A stretch of 33,418 bases of DNA from a virus. Positions 1 through 33,418 of the stretch are shown in pieces (positions within the stretch are counted from its first letter, which is position 1; each line of letters starts with the position of its first letter). The position numbers were made by a program, and so were the translations under genes. The notes beneath the pieces are model-generated. The model saw nothing but the letters and a program-made list of their open reading frames with translations. It was not told where the DNA came from and ran no database searches. The stretch spans positions 1 through 33,418 of IMG/VR virus record IMGVR_UViG_3300048029_000486. One strand, given 5' to 3'.

Positions 1-402
1 ACACCTGTACTGACTACAGTCCACATTTCTTCAGGTTCATCATATTCTTCTAAAAGATCTTGGCAAACTCTTACAGCACCAGCTATTACATATTTATGAT
101 TTAGTCCAAAAGGTAAAAATTCATATCCATGTAAATCAGCATATTTTTTAGCAATTCTATTTAAGTTTGGCATAGCAGCAATTCTCTTGAATTTAACTAA
201 CTCTGGTTTTTGATCAATAACGTATGCTTGGTGATCACTAACCTCTTTGCAAGCGGGCATAAAAAATATAGCATTTTTATTATATAACTTACAAAGTTCT
301 AATATTGCGACTGCTGCTAAACCAAACCGAGGTACAACATAAACAACTGTTTTATTTGTAATAGTATGAAATAAATATTCTGCAATTCTTGTTTTTGTTC
401 CT
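1..402. repeat. Near-identical terminal overlap, left copy (pairs with 33017-33418)
   Basis: Bases 1-402 align without gaps to 33017-33418. I count about 27 mismatches, all in the first 275 bases; 276-402 are identical to the last 127 bases of the window. The mismatches keep the reading frame and are mostly silent (five amino-acid changes in the encoded PLP enzyme), so they look like natural strain variation. It is best read as the closure overlap of a circular or circularly permuted genome, not as a true terminal repeat with a function. Confidence 0.85.
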
Positions 403-569
403 CCTATAAGAGTCTTATCTTCTCTAACTACTTTAACACCCTCGTGTTCTTTTACTATAATTTTAGGTAGTCTAGATTTAAAGTTCTTAGTTAAACTTAA
501 ATAAGATTCTCTATTAAAAATTAGATCTAAATCTTTATTAACTCCATCAATTACGTGATTATTATGCAT
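1..569 (-). CDS. Fold-type II PLP-dependent enzyme, N-terminal part (cut by window start)
   Basis: This holds the first 189 codons of a gene whose C-terminal part lies at the right end of the window; joined across the circle it would encode about 290 residues. It resembles the ACC deaminase / D-cysteine desulfhydrase branch of the tryptophan-synthase-beta fold. VVRED is followed by GGTKTRIAEYL, equivalent to the GGNKxRKLEYL signature whose lysine (K59 here) holds pyridoxal phosphate. A later PFG.NHKYVIAGAV stretch and WTVVSTGVLTRGLQ match the sugar-phosphate-binding and substrate loops in order. It is shorter than typical family members (about 330). Its ATG overlaps the stop of the upstream gene as TAATG, suggesting coupled translation. 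The context (hydroxymethylase, candidate amino acid:DNA transferase) suggests it edits an amino acid attached to DNA or supplies one; this is inference. Confidence 0.65.
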   Translation of the reverse strand, partial: MHNNHVIDGVNKDLDLIFNRESYLSLTKNFKSRLPKIIVKEHEGVKVVREDKTLIGGTKTRIAEYLFHTITNKTVVYVVPRFGLAAVAILELCKLYNKNAIFFMPACKEVSDHQAYVIDQKPELVKFKRIAAMPNLNRIAKKYADLHGYEFLPFGLNHKYVIAGAVRVCQDLLEEYDEPEEMWTVVSTG

Positions 570-1600
570 TATAATGTTTCCACGAATTTATAATATTTTT
601 CTTGTCCCCAAATATCTTTTAACACTGAATTATTTAACATTACTTTACCGCCATTTTTTGCAATATGATCTTTTGATTGATACTCTTGTAAATATCTTAT
701 AATATCACAATTACGAGAATCTTCACAGTCCATTGGATTTAATCCATATCTTTCAGATTGATATTGAAGTACGTCATTAATATAATCAAATTCTTTAACT
801 TTTCCTACTTTAGGATAAATACTTTTAATGCATTTAGTTGCATTGGTTCCTGCATATAGTCTACTTTTAGGATCTACAAAGTCATTAAAATACTGCGCTA
901 AATCACAAGCAAAAGCAGTTAGTACAAAGTTTTGTCTCTTATATCCATTTTCTTGCAACCATTTATTTCCAAAATCAGTTACTTGGTAGATCTCAGCTCT
1001 TTCTGGCTTCTGCATTAAATAATCTAATATTGCAGCAACTAATTTCCAACTATCTTTTAATATAAAGTGCTTTAAATGGCCCGATTTCATATCTGGATAA
1101 CTAAATTGTGGTAATAGGTAACCTTTATTATCTGTAAATGGTATTTGTCTTTCTCTTAGGTCATCAAGCCACTCTGTGCATCTATATCTTCCCATTAATA
1201 TAGAATCAATAATCCAAAAGTTACCAAAACCATGTGTGCCGTAAAAATCATTAAATAAACCAGTTTTTGGAACATAATTAATTCCACTTCCACAAAGTCT
1301 AAATAAATAAAATAACATAAACCAATCTAAAGGTTCTTTAATATTATTCTTTAAAAATTCTCCATTTCCTTTGTAATCTTTTTCTTCATACCAAACCGCT
1401 TCTGTAAAACTACAAAATGCTGCATATCTTCTACTTCCCATATCATATATAGGTACATTAAAAATTAGATCATCATTTACGGCTTTCTTTAAACTACCTT
1501 CGAATGGTATTTTTTTAATAGTATGATTTTCCATGTACATGCTTTTTACGTGGTAATCATCTAACATTGATTGTAATTCACCTATAATTTCAAAACTCAA
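569..1600 (-). CDS. Candidate amino acid:DNA transferase (aGPT-pyrophosphorylase-like)
   Basis: 343 residues, mostly alpha-helical by composition. Seen: FRLCGSGINY near residue 100, then THGFGNF, later a block with FACDLAQYF and DPKSRLYAGTNA, and near the C-terminus EDSRNCDIIRYLQEY. This order recalls the alpha-glutamyl/putrescinyl thymine pyrophosphorylase (aGPT-PPlase) families, helical proteins related to HhH DNA glycosylases. They join an amino acid or amine to a phosphorylated hydroxymethyl base in phage DNA. The assignment is from memory of family features and needs a profile search. It overlaps the upstream SGNH-like gene by 4 bases and the downstream PLP gene by 1 base, so the three are clearly co-translated. 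Known partners act on hydroxymethyluracil. Here the only hydroxymethylase looks cytosine-specific, and no hydroxymethyl-base kinase was recognised. Confidence 0.45.
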   Translation of the reverse strand: MSFEIIGELQSMLDDYHVKSMYMENHTIKKIPFEGSLKKAVNDDLIFNVPIYDMGSRRYAAFCSFTEAVWYEEKDYKGNGEFLKNNIKEPLDWFMLFYLFRLCGSGINYVPKTGLFNDFYGTHGFGNFWIIDSILMGRYRCTEWLDDLRERQIPFTDNKGYLLPQFSYPDMKSGHLKHFILKDSWKLVAAILDYLMQKPERAEIYQVTDFGNKWLQENGYKRQNFVLTAFACDLAQYFNDFVDPKSRLYAGTNATKCIKSIYPKVGKVKEFDYINDVLQYQSERYGLNPMDCEDSRNCDIIRYLQEYQSKDHIAKNGGKVMLNNSVLKDIWGQEKYYKFVETL

Positions 1601-2496
1601 AATAAACTCACTTGTTCTGTTTTAATATTTTTTTTATAATATTTTGGCCTTAAATGTACAGATTGTTTTGGCTCCATTACTTTTTTTTGAAAATAATCAA
1701 TATCATCATACCATTTTTCAGGCCAATTAATAACATTTAACCCAGATTTATCCATTAAGTCATTTACTATATGAACTAATGTTTGCCTTTGTTCTCTTGT
1801 ACCAAAATAGTTTTGTCCTTTATATTGACCGCTTTTAGGTATTTTTCTGTTTTCATTTTCTATTGGTAATAAATGTGTAATTGTTGCATTATATTTTTTT
1901 GCATAATTAATGTATCTTTCAAATAGTTCTACAGCAGATCTTAGCGGATTAGGTTGTCTACATAAATGAAACCTTATATCAATATTACCAAAATATAATA
2001 TTACATCTTTATAGTTATTAAAGTTTTTTTGATTTTTTAAAAAACCATGTAAAGTTTTACCATCATTTCTATTTATTTCATATTCTCTATTTGGCCAAAC
2101 AGAAATACTATGACTATCTCCATAAACTATTTTGTCTTTTTTTGGTAATGTTATTTTTTCTATTTGCTTTGTAAATTTTAAATTTAAATTACGTTTTTTA
2201 TAAAAATCATTAGGATCAAAGTTATCTATTGACATTATTTTACCATTAAAATTATTTAACTTATTACATCTATCAATAGTAGAATCTTGTATACCTCCAA
2301 TAATATTATAACTACCTTCTTTATAATTTGGACCATGGCAAATAATTAATCTTTCATAATATCCCCATGCTTCTTTTTCTGTTAAAAAATCTGCATTAGG
2401 ATCTATTAGATCTTTTACGATCATATTCCAACCAGCACTATGTGAATTTAAAGAGCAAGCAGGATTATTTAATATTCCAATAATTCCAGTTTTCAT
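1597..2496 (-). CDS. SGNH-hydrolase-like protein with an extra N-terminal domain
   Basis: 299 residues. The C-terminal two thirds carry the SGNH/GDSL blocks in order: VYGDSHS (residues 124-130, nucleophile block I), YFGNIDIRFH (168-177, corresponding to the GxND block III and resembling the FGxIDxRxH form found in polysaccharide gene clusters), and SVHLRP (279-284, block V with the His). The usual DxxH aspartate is not obvious before H281. The first 110 residues (HSAGWN, CHGP) form a separate part that I do not recognise. It overlaps both neighbours by 4 bases (ATGA type) in the dUTPase-to-PLP stretch of the early operon. SGNH proteins are usually ester hydrolases or acyltransferases. A role in acylating or deacylating a modified base is possible but inferred only from position. 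Confidence 0.55.
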   Translation of the reverse strand: MKTGIIGILNNPACSLNSHSAGWNMIVKDLIDPNADFLTEKEAWGYYERLIICHGPNYKEGSYNIIGGIQDSTIDRCNKLNNFNGKIMSIDNFDPNDFYKKRNLNLKFTKQIEKITLPKKDKIVYGDSHSISVWPNREYEINRNDGKTLHGFLKNQKNFNNYKDVILYFGNIDIRFHLCRQPNPLRSAVELFERYINYAKKYNATITHLLPIENENRKIPKSGQYKGQNYFGTREQRQTLVHIVNDLMDKSGLNVINWPEKWYDDIDYFQKKVMEPKQSVHLRPKYYKKNIKTEQVSLF

Positions 2497-2822
2497 TTCT
2501 TTTTTAAATACTTATTTAATGCTCCAATGTAAGCAACAGCATCTAATAAGTTATCTTCCTTGTGGTTGTAACTTTCTCTTGATAGTTTTAAAGATGTTAA
2601 TATTAAATATATATCTACAGCTGTAATATCTTTATTAGTAAGAAGGCTTGCAATTTTTGCAGTCTTTTCCATTCCTTCTTCAAACGGCCCATATTGACGT
2701 TCTTTCTCTTGTCTTCTCTCGTGTACTATTTCATGAGCTATTTGTAAAATTGATTTATTCTCCTGTGCTGCCAAAACCTTTATCTCCTCTCTCATCATCT
2801 TCTTTAGTTTCCCAAGGTGCAT
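2493..2822 (-). CDS. Small phage protein, DUF6378-like
   Basis: Up to 109 residues; the core (from about residue 35) reads RQYGPFEEGMEKTA, then DITAVDIYLILTSLKLSR and NLLDAVAYIGALNKYL. The YG.FEE...KIA / D...LKLSR / D..AYIGAL pattern matches small phage proteins grouped as DUF6378, whose role is unknown. The listed start overlaps the dUTPase 3' end by 68 bases. The paired ATGs at 2798 and 2795 give a shorter overlap and are equally possible starts. It sits between dUTPase and the SGNH-like gene, overlapping the latter by 4 bases. The family often occurs near phage nucleotide-metabolism genes, but no activity is claimed. Confidence 0.6.
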   Translation of the reverse strand: MHLGKLKKMMREEIKVLAAQENKSILQIAHEIVHERRQEKERQYGPFEEGMEKTAKIASLLTNKDITAVDIYLILTSLKLSRESYNHKEDNLLDAVAYIGALNKYLKKK

Positions 2823-3198
2823 GTGATTTTAGTTCTTGTAACTCGTGGTACTCTTGATTAATTAACACAAATTGTAAGATCTTTTGCCCTTTTTCTAATT
2901 TAATGCTTCTATTTCCAATATTAATTAAATGTAAATGTATTTCGCCTTTATAATTTTCATCGACTACACAGGCGCCAACTTGTAAATTATATTTAGTTGC
3001 AATTCCACTCTTGTTAAATGCCACAAAACAGGTATTACTTGGCAAGCTTACTTTAATACCAGAAGGAATTAATACGCTTTCATTTGGTGATAATTTATAA
3101 TAATCGTACCAATCATTAGGAATAAAAAAATCATATCCCGCATTTTTACCAGATCTTTCTGGTGACTTTACATCTCTTGTTTTATAAAATGATATCAT
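2755..3198 (-). CDS. dut: Trimeric-type dUTPase
   Basis: Hydrolyses dUTP to dUMP and pyrophosphate, keeping uracil out of DNA and feeding thymidylate synthesis. All five motifs of the homotrimeric family are present in 147 residues: AGYDFF (20-25), NKSGIA (62-67), GACVVDENYKGEI (75-87, with the catalytic-site Asp), GQKILQFVL (104-112) and the C-terminal arm GFGSTG (141-146). Length is normal. It overlaps the upstream nuclease-like gene by 4 bases. With the dCMP deaminase downstream in the same operon (31631-32050) it forms two routes to dUMP, although no plain thymidylate synthase is present. Confidence 0.93.
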   Translation of the reverse strand: MISFYKTRDVKSPERSGKNAGYDFFIPNDWYDYYKLSPNESVLIPSGIKVSLPSNTCFVAFNKSGIATKYNLQVGACVVDENYKGEIHLHLINIGNRSIKLEKGQKILQFVLINQEYHELQELKSHAPWETKEDDERGDKGFGSTGE

Positions 3199-5290: not shown

Positions 5291-5710
5291 TTATTTGCTT
5301 ATTTTGTTTTTTAATGTTTCTAATTCTTCTTTTAATATCTCTTGAGATTCTAATTCTAATCTTATTTGATGTCTTAATTCTTGCAATTCAGCTAAACTAC
5401 TTAACCAATCTTTTAATTCTAAAGTTGCATAAAATTTAGCATTCATTTTAAAAACATTTACTGGTGTTTTTCCTGGTGGACAATCACCATAAATCTGTTC
5501 CCACCATTTTTTTATAGATAAATTTTTTTGATTTTTAACTTCGAAGTGATAATCAAAGGCCGCCGAATTAGGATTTATATCAATTATATCACCTTTAATT
5601 GACATTCCACCTGATTGTGGAGTTCGTCGTACATTTGTTCCTAAATATTTATTTATTTCTTTAGCAACATCTCTTTCTGCTTTTTTTCCTTTATTCTGCG
5701 AATTTATCAT
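5291..5710 (-). CDS. Holliday-junction-resolvase-like PD-(D/E)XK endonuclease
   Basis: 139 residues. KGKKAERDVAKEIN (E12), RRTPQSGGMSIKGDI (D41) and FEVKNQKNLSIKKWWEQI (E57-x-K59) follow the archaeal-Hjc-like / phage resolvase pattern. The last 45 residues form a predicted coiled coil (LAELQELRHQIRLELE). It probably cuts branched DNA made during recombination or before packaging. The gene has a ribosome site (AGGAG) and follows a 54-base hairpin that separates it from the SSB gene. Confidence 0.75.
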   Translation of the reverse strand: MINSQNKGKKAERDVAKEINKYLGTNVRRTPQSGGMSIKGDIIDINPNSAAFDYHFEVKNQKNLSIKKWWEQIYGDCPPGKTPVNVFKMNAKFYATLELKDWLSSLAELQELRHQIRLELESQEILKEELETLKNKISK

Positions 5711-5730
5711 ATCACTCCTTTGTTAAAGAT

Positions 5731-22700: not shown

Positions 22701-23731
22701 TCTGCATTACCAGTAACATCTCCAGTTACATTTCCTGTGAGGTTTCCAGTTACATCTCCAGTTAAATCTCCAGTTACATTACCTGTAACATCTCCATATA
22801 ATCTACCTGCATGAATATTTGCATTAGTCAAACTTAAATTTCCAGTAGAAGAAGCATCTGCTGTTGTAGTAGCAAATCGTATCCTATCTAAACTTTCGTC
22901 CCAACCAATAAATACATTATTTCCTGTACTACCTCTTTCTATGATCAATCCTGAATCGTTAGCATTAGAAGATACACCACGATTTAATCCTATAATATTA
23001 TCTGATACATCTAAATTTGTTTGATTTACAGTAGTGGTAGTACCATTGACTTGTAAATCTCCACTAATAGTTAAGTCTTGTGAAATAGTTATATTACCTG
23101 AACTATTTATAAATAATCTATTTTGACCATTAGTAATTAATGAAATTTCATCATTACCATAAGTAGAATTATTACCGAATACAATAGCAGCAGGTGCACT
23201 ACCAGTTTCAGTCTCATTGATAATTCCTTGAATCATCATATAACCAGTAGCAGATATTTTAGGATCGCCAGTTAAAAATGACGAAGTATCTGTACTACCT
23301 AAATTAACTCTACTAAAAGTTACTGAGTCTGAAGTACCTACTGATTGTCCTATTGCTATGGTTTTATTTGCAGTTCCTGTAATAGTAACACCTGTGCCTT
23401 CAGTAAGTCCTGAAATTGCACCAGTAGCTACTAAATCAATAGCCCCATCACCTGCATCGTCATAGGTAGCAGTAATGTTTGTATGACTACCATTGGTATC
23501 AAACATATCACCGACCACATCTTGTACATATTCAGCAATAGTTTTACTACCAATGTATAATTCAGTAGATATTTTAACTTTGTTACTTGCAATCTGTAGA
23601 TCTGATGCAGTTCCATCGCCATCATACAATGTACGAAGTGTACCATCGATTCCCCCAGTTTCTCCAGTATGGATTAATTGTACATATCCCTGATTTACAG
23701 GAGTATTTCCTATATTAGTATTACTACTCAT
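19718..23731 (-). CDS. Tail fibre/receptor-binding protein with C-terminal S74 chaperone
   Basis: 1337 residues, the largest gene. The N-terminal part (GNTPVNQGYVQLIHTGETGG) is likely the attachment end. Residues about 220-320 contain NIIGLNRGVSSNANDSGLII, then a tandem VTGN/LTGD tract. The central and late parts hold several VGIGTSSP...L.V.G repeats typical of trimeric fibres. The last 100 residues are an intramolecular chaperone: SDIRLKENF (Ser 1238, Lys 1243), AGFKAQEVEKVLPHLV, and a C-terminal coiled coil. The chaperone trimerises the fibre and cuts itself off before Ser 1238. No AGATCT site occurs across most of this gene, unlike the rest of the genome, which hints at separate ancestry. 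Confidence 0.88.
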   Translation of the reverse strand: MSSNTNIGNTPVNQGYVQLIHTGETGGIDGTLRTLYDGDGTASDLQIASNKVKISTELYIGSKTIAEYVQDVVGDMFDTNGSHTNITATYDDAGDGAIDLVATGAISGLTEGTGVTITGTANKTIAIGQSVGTSDSVTFSRVNLGSTDTSSFLTGDPKISATGYMMIQGIINETETGSAPAAIVFGNNSTYGNDEISLITNGQNRLFINSSGNITISQDLTISGDLQVNGTTTTVNQTNLDVSDNIIGLNRGVSSNANDSGLIIERGSTGNNVFIGWDESLDRIRFATTTADASSTGNLSLTNANIHAGRLYGDVTGNVTGDLTGDVTGNLTGNVTGDVTGNADTATSLATARSITMSGEVSSGAVNFDGTAGVVIPNTTIGSGVIVDGSIASDANIATSKLASNTISGVALGSNLNALTVGTGMAFASGSNYTGATARQINLNLSAIDHDSLGNYVANEHIDWTIDQGATNIHAGNYTDTNTNQLTTFVIQDGDTNNVTIDQGKYVKFQALTNGGLDIDWASSLGAGSIGDPYDLQFKIDLSNMSALADTLESGDNLLVYNADEGTALAPVSEIQSALSIPSASGTTDGVVTLNANGTLTGESGLTYDTSTLAVTGDQTLSGVLKHSSNGDNRLTLDDDSDSSVANQVTLAGVNNVNILIDGTNNGTGDFQVRSSPTTANDLDTASMILDMDKVTATFNQDTSQQFQIGGANRLKILETGTFIQNSSLGVGITPVDGNARIQATSHIEAGVGSGAIGLTINDGGGNSNVTFNHTERIPEQNGNSGRIEVNTDGVGSPYMAFELAGNVTSGVTVATTEIARINATGLQSSLSGTAASPALRVNDSDTGFYRIADDKLGISTAGTFAVAVDASQRVGIGTSTPADKLHVTGNIRTNGEIYLDAGGDSIAFMGVSDANYRKALYSTNDDHYITNRHTGGDLILMSNNGSAGGETERLRFVAGSGTQNAYFSNVNVGIGTSSPGYKLDVAGAGRFSGHLRLADGQAYMAGGGEDVQLFHSNLYGGFLFNQTNDFYFDQVAADKDWIFRVDDSDGGGDYQEVMRIQGSTKNVGIGTSSPAVDLHILDTGGHSQLRIETDSASHGAYLELESTTNKYQIYNVGGDLGIDEAGVATRLTIKDSTGSVLIGTTNTGWDGDADNLVIGNGSGNNGMTIYAGSSNFSQINFADSNSGAGRYTGVLRYTHSNNSMSFHTNDGVEAVRIDSSQDAHFDQDVIAFSTTPSDIRLKENFEKIENGLDVVSKLEGHTFNWKKGGERLSAGFKAQEVEKVLPHLVDEKKLPLKADDDKEYKILRYEEMIPYLVEAIKEQQEQINKLEEKLNG
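22710..22793 (-). repeat. Seven 12-base tandem units in the fibre gene
   Basis: Seven imperfect copies of a 12-base unit (plus-strand form CCAGTTACATCT) encode alternating VTGN, VTGD and LTGD tetrapeptides. The unit is in frame, so copy-number changes alter fibre length without a frameshift. Such tracts are usual in S74 fibres and are hot spots for recombination. Confidence 0.85.
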
Positions 23732-31292: not shown

Positions 31293-31325
31293 CCCGGTAG
31301 ATCTTTGGTTTACCGGGTTTTTTTA
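31293..31325. terminator. Bidirectional terminator between plus unit and early operon
   Basis: CCCGGTA, 11-base loop, TACCGGG, then TTTTTTT on the plus strand and CCTTTTG on the minus strand. It closes the plus-strand unit and the leftward early operon, whose last gene ends at 31323. Confidence 0.88.
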
Positions 31326-31634
31326 TTTATTTTTTCTATGGAATTTACACTCGGTTTCTATAGCTATTTTATTTAGCTTCTTTAATGCCCGACTATAATA
31401 TGTTTTGACACTAGATTGTGATAGAGATAATTCTATTGCTATTCTATCGAACTTAGACTTACTTAAAACTCTTTCTATAAATACTTTATATTCTTGTTCA
31501 CTTAATATCTTGGAACAAATTAAACCTGTAAGCATATAAATTACTGCTTTATCAATTCTTTTATTGTGATCTTCTAATTCTTGTACTAAGTCTGAAAAAC
31601 TTTTATCTGTATTTTCAATATCAATATATTTCAT
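31323..31634 (-). CDS. Sigma-70 region-4-like HTH regulator
   Basis: 103 residues. ILSEQEYKVFIERVLSKSKF then DRIAIELSLSQSSVKTYYSR and ALKKLNKI is a helix-turn-helix of the sigma region 4 / LuxR kind. The N-terminal 50 residues are charged and helical. No region 2 is seen, so it is not a full sigma factor. It is the last gene of the early operon and overlaps the deaminase gene by 4 bases. ArpU-like phage proteins of this design switch on late genes, a role that fits here. Confidence 0.65.
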   Translation of the reverse strand: MKYIDIENTDKSFSDLVQELEDHNKRIDKAVIYMLTGLICSKILSEQEYKVFIERVLSKSKFDRIAIELSLSQSSVKTYYSRALKKLNKIAIETECKFHRKNK

Positions 31635-32050
31635 ATTTTATAATATCCTATCTTATGCGGATGTGCTTCTAATAATTCATTAATCTTATATTCCCATTTT
31701 GTTTTATACTTTTCTTTATAATATATGTTTCTTATATCTAAATTTAATAAAACTTTGAGACAATTTATACAAGGGCTAGTTGTCGTGTATATATCGCACT
31801 TACTTATACTTACTCCATTATAAGCAGCACTAATTACTGCGTTGATCTCTGCGTGAATAGTTTGATCACAACCTTTTCTGCATGTTATCTTATTACAATG
31901 CTCATGCCCTCTAATTGAACCGTTATATCCTGTTGCAAGTATTTGCTTATTTTTTACTAATACACAACCCACTTTACGACTTAAACAAGTAGATCTATCT
32001 TTTACTCGTTCAGCAATATCAATAAAATATGTGTCAATATCTAAGCGCAA
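31631..32050 (-). CDS. dCMP deaminase
   Basis: 139 residues. HAEIN (H66, E68) and SPCINC (C94, C97) form the zinc site of the cytidine/deoxycytidylate deaminase fold; GYNGSIRGHEHC and TCRKGC before it are typical for dCMP deaminases. It turns dCMP into dUMP, and some relatives accept 5-hydroxymethyl-dCMP. It overlaps the hydroxymethylase gene by 17 bases, so the two compete for or share a substrate in one operon. Confidence 0.9.
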   Translation of the reverse strand: MRLDIDTYFIDIAERVKDRSTCLSRKVGCVLVKNKQILATGYNGSIRGHEHCNKITCRKGCDQTIHAEINAVISAAYNGVSISKCDIYTTTSPCINCLKVLLNLDIRNIYYKEKYKTKWEYKINELLEAHPHKIGYYKI

Positions 32051-32720
32051 TTTTTTCTACCATATCGAAATGTCTTCTATAAACATGCATACTAGTTGCA
32101 AAATGTCTATATTTACCAACCTTCAAATGTGTTTTTTCTGCTACAAATTTATGTAAATAATTAAACCACGGAACATCATAACTAAATCCATAAATAAGAT
32201 CATTACTTCGCATCATTACTAAACAATCTAATTTATTATCTGAATTTAATATAAATTGCTGTGCAATTGTACATACGAAGTCTTTATTATTCTTATATTT
32301 ATGTTGCGGCTGATTATAATTAATTATTGCTTGACGCGTGTGTTCATCTTCTTTTAATTGATCAATACACCAATCTAATTGACTCATTCCACTATACTTA
32401 TCTACCATAGCTAACTTTCCATAGTTACTATTTATAGTTTCATTCTCGTCTGTCAATCCTTCCCAAAATGTACTATATTTTTTAATATAATCTATTTTTG
32501 GATCTCCTGATTTATACCAAGCTAATTCAGCCTCCAAATATGTTTTACTTAATTTTCTTTCTGGCAACGTTATTATTGGTGATTCATTGGCGTCCATTTC
32601 AATAAAACAGTTTTGTAATTCTAATGTCGTAAATCCTCTTGGTGCAACTTTATTTCCAGTGTGATGTAATTTCTTACATACTTCAATAATTGCATTATCT
32701 ATATTTTTTACTTTAATCAT
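32034..32720 (-). CDS. dCMP hydroxymethylase (thymidylate-synthase family)
   Basis: 228 residues with the thymidylate-synthase layout: INSNYG (97-101), DFVCTI (C150, the nucleophile), MRSND (170-174) and SMHVYRRHF (H212). The order matches T4 gp42 word for word (INSNYG, DFMCT, MRSND, GF.ND.AW, SLHVYSRHF). At the place of thymidylate synthase Asn177, which reads uracil, it has Asp182 (GFSYDVPW). T4 gp42 also has Asp (D179), and this selects cytosine. It should make 5-hydroxymethyl-dCMP from dCMP and methylene-tetrahydrofolate. It overlaps the PLP gene by 8 bases. Confidence 0.88.
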   Translation of the reverse strand: MIKVKNIDNAIIEVCKKLHHTGNKVAPRGFTTLELQNCFIEMDANESPIITLPERKLSKTYLEAELAWYKSGDPKIDYIKKYSTFWEGLTDENETINSNYGKLAMVDKYSGMSQLDWCIDQLKEDEHTRQAIINYNQPQHKYKNNKDFVCTIAQQFILNSDNKLDCLVMMRSNDLIYGFSYDVPWFNYLHKFVAEKTHLKVGKYRHFATSMHVYRRHFDMVEKIALRY

Positions 32721-33418
32721 TCCAACCTCTATATGAATTTACTAAATCTTTTCTAAAATGTTTAGGACATTTTACGTCTTTTGCAACATTCCAAAACCAA
32801 ATATCCTTTTTCGTATTTTTTGGTATATATTTCCAAGCTTTTGCATCATAATTTTCTACAGTTGGAAAAGGTGGTAAACTAGTTTCTTTCGTATGAAAAT
32901 TTAATGGCTCACTTATAATTTTAGTTCTACCTAATTCTCCTGCTTTCATATTTCTAGCAACAGCAACACCTCTCATATTAGTATTTTCAAAACCAATTTG
33001 TAATCCTCTAGTTAAAACACCTGTACTAACTACAGTCCACATTTCTTCAGGTTCATCATACTCCTCTAAAAGATCATGGCAGACTCTTACGGCACCAGCT
33101 ATTACATATTTATGATTTAATCCAAATGGTAAGAATTCATATCCATGTAAATCAGCATATTTTTTAGCAATTCTATTTAAGTTTGGCATAGCAGCAATGC
33201 GTTTGAATTTAACATCAAGAGGTTTTTGATTGATAACATAAGCTTGATGGTCACTAACCTCTTTGCAAGCTGGCATAAAAAATATAGCATCTTTATTATA
33301 TAACTTACAAAGTTCTAATATTGCGACTGCTGCTAAACCAAACCGAGGTACAACATAAACAACTGTTTTATTTGTAATAGTATGAAATAAATATTCTGCA
33401 ATTCTTGTTTTTGTTCCT
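32713..33418 (-). CDS. Fold-type II PLP-dependent enzyme, C-terminal part (runs off window end)
   Basis: The in-frame codons continue to the last base, so the internal ATG at 33276 is not the start; the gene begins in the left copy (569). The part seen holds the small-domain strand VVYVVPRFGLAAVAILELCK, then FFMPACKEVSDHQ, LPFGLNHKYVIAGAVRVC, WTVVSTGVLTRGLQIGF, and an unusual C-terminal end (PKHFRKDLVNSYRGWND). It joins the left part (K59 region) to make about 290 residues. The two copies differ at five residues within the overlap, near the middle of the protein. Confidence 0.65.
   Translation of the reverse strand, partial: GTKTRIAEYLFHTITNKTVVYVVPRFGLAAVAILELCKLYNKDAIFFMPACKEVSDHQAYVINQKPLDVKFKRIAAMPNLNRIAKKYADLHGYEFLPFGLNHKYVIAGAVRVCHDLLEEYDEPEEMWTVVSTGVLTRGLQIGFENTNMRGVAVARNMKAGELGRTKIISEPLNFHTKETSLPPFPTVENYDAKAWKYIPKNTKKDIWFWNVAKDVKCPKHFRKDLVNSYRGWND
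33017..33418. repeat. Near-identical terminal overlap, right copy (pairs with 1-402)
   Basis: Gap-free match to 1-402; 33292-33418 is identical to 276-402, the first 275 bases differ at about 27 positions. Together with the continuous reading frame across the joint this indicates a circular map of about 33,016 bp carrying two strain variants at the closure point. Confidence 0.85.

Follow-up and report, generated by a model that had tools for sequence, protein, structure and literature searches.

The thymidine hypermodification pathways of phages M6 and ViI involve a kinase step and proceed through 5-hydroxymethyldeoxyuridine (5hmdU) intermediates (PMC6449724). The M6 pathway, which leads to 5-(2-aminoethyl)deoxyuridine, includes an amino acid:DNA transferase (ADDT, gp51), a pyridoxal phosphate (PLP) enzyme (gp52), the parts of a hydroxymethyluracil (hmU) kinase (gp54 and gp55) and a hydroxymethylase (gp58). 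Here, we analyze a gene cluster in the IMG/VR virus record IMGVR_UViG_3300048029_000486, of which a stretch of 33,418 nt (the window) was studied. The cluster has in common with M6 a predicted hydroxymethylase of the thymidylate synthase (TS) family (32034-32720) and a putative transferase of the aGPT/ADDT fold (569-1600), which adjoins a relative of the M6 PLP enzyme. In contrast to M6, the hydroxymethylase is of the Asp (dCMP) type and not of the Asn (dUMP) type, and there is an additional SGNH protein (1597-2496). Moreover, the cluster is without an hmU kinase, a helical helper or a radical S-adenosylmethionine (SAM) gene. As it departs from the thymidine pathways in their defining features, the base and the kinase, we do not file it among them. 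We conclude that it is a real and widespread hydroxymethylcytosine (5hmC) hypermodification cluster, which is parallel to the thymidine pathways and distinct from them. We put the probability of a phage pathway that hypermodifies cytosine at about 70%, and the attached group is probably an amino acid. Such a route is not known from phages outside thymine-type bases, and it would be a new means of disguising viral DNA.

Pathways that modify cytosine are similar to the cluster in other respects. The 5hmC pathway of T4 shares with it a dCMP hydroxymethylase, a dCMP deaminase and a pool-cleaning pyrophosphatase. T4 relies on glucosylation, whereas the cluster encodes the SGNH protein, the aGPT-fold transferase and the PLP enzyme, and none of its proteins was identified as a glycosyltransferase. 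In the 5hmC carbamoyltransferase system (MetaGPA, PMC8670742), an Asp-type synthase homologue, a dCMP deaminase and a MazG-like gene lie beside a 5hmC-decorating enzyme, as in the cluster, but the decorating enzyme is a carbamoyltransferase. Synechococcus phage S-B43 (CmoA/CmoX/CmoY) carries an amino acid, glycine, on a C5-modified cytosine, in the form of 5-carboxymethylcytosine-glycine. This base is made by methylating cytosine within the DNA with carboxy-SAM (Cx-SAM) and by an amide ligation that depends on ATP, and the system operates without a hydroxymethylase, an aGPT-fold enzyme or a PLP enzyme (PMC12783734). A Cx-SAM synthase, a carboxymethyltransferase or an amide ligase was not found among the cluster proteins scanned, with the rest of the genome not searched. 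An earlier note on the window, written from the letters only, had called the combination of enzymes new. This holds for the route that joins hydroxymethylcytosine to an aGPT-type enzyme, but not for an amino acid on cytosine as such, which is already known from other chemistry (PMC12783734).

Conserved linkage, the helical protein and the PLP enzyme

The earlier note had suggested that related viruses be searched for the same gene set. The cluster was found in 82 distinct uncultured viral loci, which were used for all linkage counts and which exclude chance linkage. The SGNH gene is present in all testable loci (69/69), and in 66 of these 69 it is directly upstream of the transferase gene. The two are fused in one 713-aa frame in L083, separated by inserted genes in L039, and in L037 the SGNH gene is located elsewhere in the genome. 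The PLP gene follows the transferase gene in 77/77 cases, and a synthase homologue is at most 8 kb away in 43 of 45 loci. Between close relatives, the transferase retains 89-98% amino acid identity, whereas the SGNH protein and the PLP enzyme drop to 59-80%. In more divergent pairs, fourfold-site identities are low for all three genes alike. The pattern suggests that the core attachment reaction is tightly constrained, and that the flanking enzymes diverge fast, as would be expected if they tailor the product.

The protein encoded by 569-1600 (minus strand, 343 aa) is all-helical in its predicted structure. It has at least 198 relatives in IMG/VR, but it belongs to no sequence family in Pfam, PHROGs or NCBIfam, and phmmer and hmmsearch found no match for it in the PDB. 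No homologue was detected by tblastn in cultured phages (50,697 phage records), and the 85 pattern matches in about 85,000 bacterial and archaeal genomes did not include a relative. An AlphaFold2 model, built using 31 relatives (pLDDT 90), was compared by Foldseek with the predicted viral structures of the BFVD. The model matched A0A6J5L8T5, annotated as 'Amino acid:DNA transferase' (E 4e-12, template modelling score 0.76), and another entry with this annotation (E 7e-5). It also matched the SP10 5-hmdU kinase, which has a helical domain of the same superfamily (E 7e-3, probability 1.0). SP10, phiW-14 and aGPT-Pplase1 entries were matched with probabilities of 0.94-1.0, and endonuclease III weakly. 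The modelled structure thus supports the assignment of the protein as an aGPT/ADDT-fold transferase. The earlier note had named it as a candidate transferase of the aGPT type, and had made its proposal depend on that relation. Sequence profiles alone give no relation to aGPT-PPlases, a verdict that the comparison of predicted structures reverses. If the assignment is correct, this is a transferase family too divergent for the present profiles. In L004 (2500-3465), an extra 321-aa gene without a Pfam match lies between the transferase and PLP genes, and may encode a second, diverged transferase (hhalign probability 44-53%).

The PLP enzyme gene is split between the ends of the contig. The N-terminal 189 residues are encoded at 3..569 (minus strand), reaching the contig end, and the C-terminal part at 32713..33417 (minus strand), where 33017-33417 is a repeat of 1-402. 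Joining 3..569 with 32713-33016 yields a protein of 290 aa. The joined protein matches Pfam PALP with E 3.4e-5, which is below the Pfam cut-off, and PHROG 7093 with E 1e-34. Its homologue in L008 matches PALP above the cut-off (E 2e-10). The Schiff-base lysine, Lys59 in a GGTK motif, and an STGVL motif are invariant, and the features expected of a fold-type II PLP enzyme, a PALP domain with a Schiff-base lysine and a phosphate loop, are thus present, in line with the earlier reading. The enzyme is akin to M6 gp52 (BLASTP E 8e-6; PHROG 7093), which adjoins the M6 ADDT gp51, and which we presume to act as a decarboxylase. A copy was not detectable in ViI. The idea that the PLP enzyme is a metabolic passenger was rejected. 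PLP relatives also occur in or beside ParB-like and N6/N4 DNA methyltransferase proteins of Erythrobacter phage ZS04 (L010:2326-4764) and Microcystis phage Mae-JY30 (L012:8387-10705), and ZS04_7 combines PALP and N6_N4_Mtase domains in one protein. This arrangement hints at another PLP-edited base modification.

The SGNH protein and the proposed pathway

No sequence family was found for the SGNH protein (1597-2496, minus strand, 299 aa). Its AlphaFold2 model (pLDDT 92) matches GDSL/SGNH esterases in the PDB (Foldseek E 2e-4, probability 1.0). The catalytic residues Ser128 and His281 are invariant in 32 sequences, as are the motifs GDSH, GNID and SVH, and the call of an SGNH-like protein is thereby upheld. 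Homologues are present in the T4-like Aeromonas phages 44RR2.8t and phiAS4 and in Tenacibaculum phage PTm1, and were not found in the thymidine phages ViI, M6 and phiW-14. Both 44RR2.8t (ORF233c) and phiAS4 (ORF27) resemble the cluster in combining the SGNH protein with an Asp-type hydroxymethylase; the second synthase homologue of PTm1 is less clear. In contrast to the cluster, neither a PLP enzyme nor a homologue of 569-1600 was detected in the two Aeromonas phages. In phiAS4, the SGNH protein is free-standing and lies beside a UDP-galactopyranose mutase and a glycosyltransferase-like gene. This phiAS4 locus (L141:3775-7047) is a candidate for a galactofuranosyl-type decoration of 5hmC. In 44RR2.8t ORF233c (L013:8001-10388), the SGNH domain forms a fusion with a region of weak similarity to HMUDK_hel (E 0.0036, below the cut-off), and this region shares the GxGP..Y and AGPGA motifs with HMUDK_hel.

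The hypermodification pathway would start with the conversion of dCMP to 5-hydroxymethyl-dCMP by the enzyme encoded at 32034-32720. The dCMP deaminase and the dUTPase (MazG in relatives) would reshape the nucleotide pool, and host or other kinases, together with a polymerase, would bring 5-hydroxymethylcytosine into the phage DNA. These steps are strongly supported. With moderate support, the 569-1600 protein, together with the SGNH protein, would then replace or decorate the hydroxyl group using an amino acid or a similar nucleophile. The PLP enzyme would trim the added alpha-amino group, by decarboxylation or elimination, as its counterpart in M6 presumably does on the thymidine side. That the SGNH protein stands in for the missing hydroxymethyl kinase, by way of an ester intermediate, is speculative.

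The SGNH protein occurs in hmC-type phages with differing gene neighbours, and the common factor therefore appears to be hydroxymethylcytosine and not the final decoration. For this reason, we infer that the protein performs acyl or ester chemistry, with the hydroxymethyl group or a product of it as substrate, and perhaps provides an activated ester that replaces the kinase step. A substitution of the kinase is suggested by two observations. The SGNH protein is found where the kinase is absent, and vice versa. In addition, the fusions of SGNH protein and transferase (in L083, and possibly in 44RR2.8t ORF233c) mirror the SP10 protein that consists of the kinase and a helical domain. A specific sequence of events, in which the SGNH protein esterifies 5hmC in DNA, the aGPT-fold enzyme, whether fused to it or encoded next to it, displaces the ester with an amino acid, and the PLP enzyme decarboxylates the product, is conceivable but doubtful. 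Thymidine hypermodification would thereby have a counterpart that is based on cytosine and does without phosphate.

Several observations weigh against the main reading, a pathway for hypermodified cytosine. A T4 gp1-type dNMP kinase and a DNA polymerase are both missing from the genes examined in the window (a 33-kb genome), and the sole Walker-A-like motif in its reading frames is in a small open reading frame (ORF) at 5294-5722. The Pfam profiles ADDT (PF18724) and HMUDK_hel (PF18723) match neither the window nor its relatives, with ViI, M6 and phiW-14 positive as controls. Likewise, no transferase-superfamily signal for 569-1600 came from hhalign or from a home-made shuffle test on profile-profile comparisons. 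These two methods also fail to detect the known relation between ADDT and HMUDK_hel, and we therefore regard their silence as uninformative; an isolated z of 4, which the shuffle test returned for the transferase profile against the PLP profile, was treated as chance. The Foldseek search of the PDB also returned no match for 569-1600, although a solved ADDT (8z2m) is deposited there, which places the relation to ADDT at the level of the superfamily. Finally, the UDP-galactopyranose mutase next to the SGNH gene of phiAS4 indicates that the SGNH protein is not tied to amino acids, and the ambiguity of its role is a further weak point.

The mutase and the glycosyltransferase-like gene of phiAS4 are also in agreement with a different explanation, according to which 5hmC receives an acyl or sugar decoration only. 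The SGNH protein would then be an acyltransferase, the helical protein a glycosylase-like base-flipper or an attacker of host DNA, and the PLP enzyme a supplier of a metabolite. The helical fold is indeed glycosylase-like, as seen from the weak match to endonuclease III, and carbamoylation and glycosylation of 5hmC are already known (PMC8670742). However, the best annotated structural match of the helical protein is an amino acid:DNA transferase, and the PLP enzyme, which is never parted from this protein (77/77), is related to that of M6. We therefore regard an acyl or sugar decoration alone as improbable.

Choice of base

The predicted hydroxymethylase (32034-32720, minus strand, 228 aa) belongs to the thymidylate synthase family (E 4e-29). 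Its top match in the PDB is the T4 dCMP hydroxymethylase (gp42, 1b49; E 5e-21), and CMP hydroxymethylases also outrank true thymidylate synthases among the solved matches. Cys150 is the nucleophile, Thr151 takes the place of residue 147 of E. coli TS, and Asp182 that of residue 177. The protein therefore has the hallmarks of a T4-type dCMP hydroxymethylase, namely the TS fold, the cysteine nucleophile, an Asp at TS position 177 and a residue other than His at TS position 147. Asp177 and non-His147 have been found to be the two residues by which synthase homologues on contigs with modified cytosine differ from ordinary ones (PMC8670742). Asp is present at position 177 in all scorable synthase homologues linked to the cluster (68/68), together with Thr or Asn at position 147. 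The His/Asn type is limited to 7-8 longer sequences, which are ordinary thymidylate synthases encoded separately on these contigs. The sequence data thus support a cytosine-specific hydroxymethylase, as the earlier note had proposed.

The alternative of yet another thymidine pathway, in which the synthase homologue would make 5-hydroxymethyl-dUMP and the trio would act on hydroxymethyluracil as in M6 and ViI, has in its favour that the enzymes are of the same kinds, and that an aGPT-fold transferase adjoins a PLP enzyme, as M6 gp51 adjoins gp52. For comparison, 39 loci around an M6-type amino acid:DNA transferase were collected. In contrast to the uniform Asp of the cluster genes, Asn is present in 31 of 31 scorable synthase homologues in this set, which also contains the hmU kinase in 32 of the 39 loci, the helical helper in 31 and the SGNH protein in none. 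The kinase profile PF18748 did not match any of the contigs of 15 relatives (0/15, up to 183 kb) or the operon proteins of the window, whereas the ViI and M6 controls were positive. The profiles of kinase and helical helper (PF18723) were also without a match in the 82 loci. The remark of the earlier note that an hmU kinase is absent is thus supported. As the SGNH protein is moreover shared with hmC phages only, a thymidine pathway is very unlikely.

Still less probable is a reading in which the Asp-type enzyme acts as a dCMP methylase, with 5-methylcytosine as the outcome, and the other genes are unrelated passengers. It is true that the thymidylate synthase of E. coli becomes a dCMP methylase upon the exchange Asn177Asp (PMC8670742). 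However, alignment indicates that the cluster enzymes (208-236 aa) are without the C-terminal tail of the methyl-forming synthases, which favours hydroxymethylation over methylation. Their best PDB matches are hydroxymethylases, and the constant linkage of the other genes argues against passengers.

If the reading as a 5hmC hypermodification pathway is right, aminoacyl-type DNA hypermodification has a second branch in phages, which is based on cytosine and widespread in uncultured viruses, and which may include a new activation route for hydroxymethyl bases. The new DNA bases would have a bearing on the evasion of restriction, CRISPR and type IV nucleases, and on the enzymatic labelling of 5hmC. 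The uncharacterized SGNH protein of cultured Aeromonas phages would also acquire a function, which makes the idea testable now.

Layout of the run and neighbouring genes

The end stretches 1-402 and 33017-33418 of the window overlap by about 402 nt with 94-96% identity, which points to strain-level variation and not to an exact repeat. The mismatches between them are clustered inside the PLP gene, which is among the most variable of the cluster, and this probably blocked exact circularization by the assembler. On the joined minus strand (2822->1 and 33418->31323), the genes from DUF6378 through the sigma-like gene form a single same-strand run. The order after joining is dUTPase, DUF6378, SGNH protein, helical protein, PLP enzyme, thymidylate synthase homologue, dCMP deaminase and sigma-region-4-like protein. 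With overlaps of 1 to 68 nt between adjacent genes, the run has the appearance of being translationally coupled. The earlier note had described such a run across the circle joint, and all of its genes were located at the positions given there, with the order intact in relatives. The close relatives L001-L003 have the same gene order and an intact PLP gene between the same two neighbours, which shows that the joint is no artefact. That the assembler created the joint, and that the cluster is not contiguous, might be suspected from an overlap identity of just 94-96%, but is hardly credible, since many independent contigs contain the same order intact within them.

The assignments of the dUTPase, the DUF6378-like gene and the dCMP deaminase by the earlier note agree with the Pfam matches. 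The dUTPase gene (2755..3198, minus strand; Pfam dUTPase E 8e-19) is either kept in the relatives or replaced by one for a MazG-type pyrophosphohydrolase, as judged from the locus layouts. The DUF6378 gene (2493..2822, minus strand; Pfam E 4e-12) is a near-constant companion of the cluster, with 77 family members among the loci. The dCMP deaminase is encoded at 31631..32050 (minus strand; Pfam E 2e-23, PHROG 174 E 2e-39). The last gene of the run (31323..31634, minus strand) encodes a small sigma-70 region 4-like protein (Pfam Sigma70_r4_2 E 2e-7) and is kept in L002 and L003.

In many of the larger relatives (L035:3000-9700 and about 30 similar loci), GroEL-, GroES- and Hsp20-like genes are located directly upstream of the SGNH gene. 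A lipoprotein-like gene lies between the transferase and PLP genes in 18 loci. A small protein with Cys and His motifs, which by eye is transglutaminase- or amidase-like, is encoded at L023:3890-4453 and in four other loci, mostly between the PLP and hydroxymethylase genes, and is a candidate for a further tailoring enzyme. Far from the cluster, tandem 12-base repeats are found at 22705-22820 of the window, inside a tail-fibre-like gene of 1337 aa.

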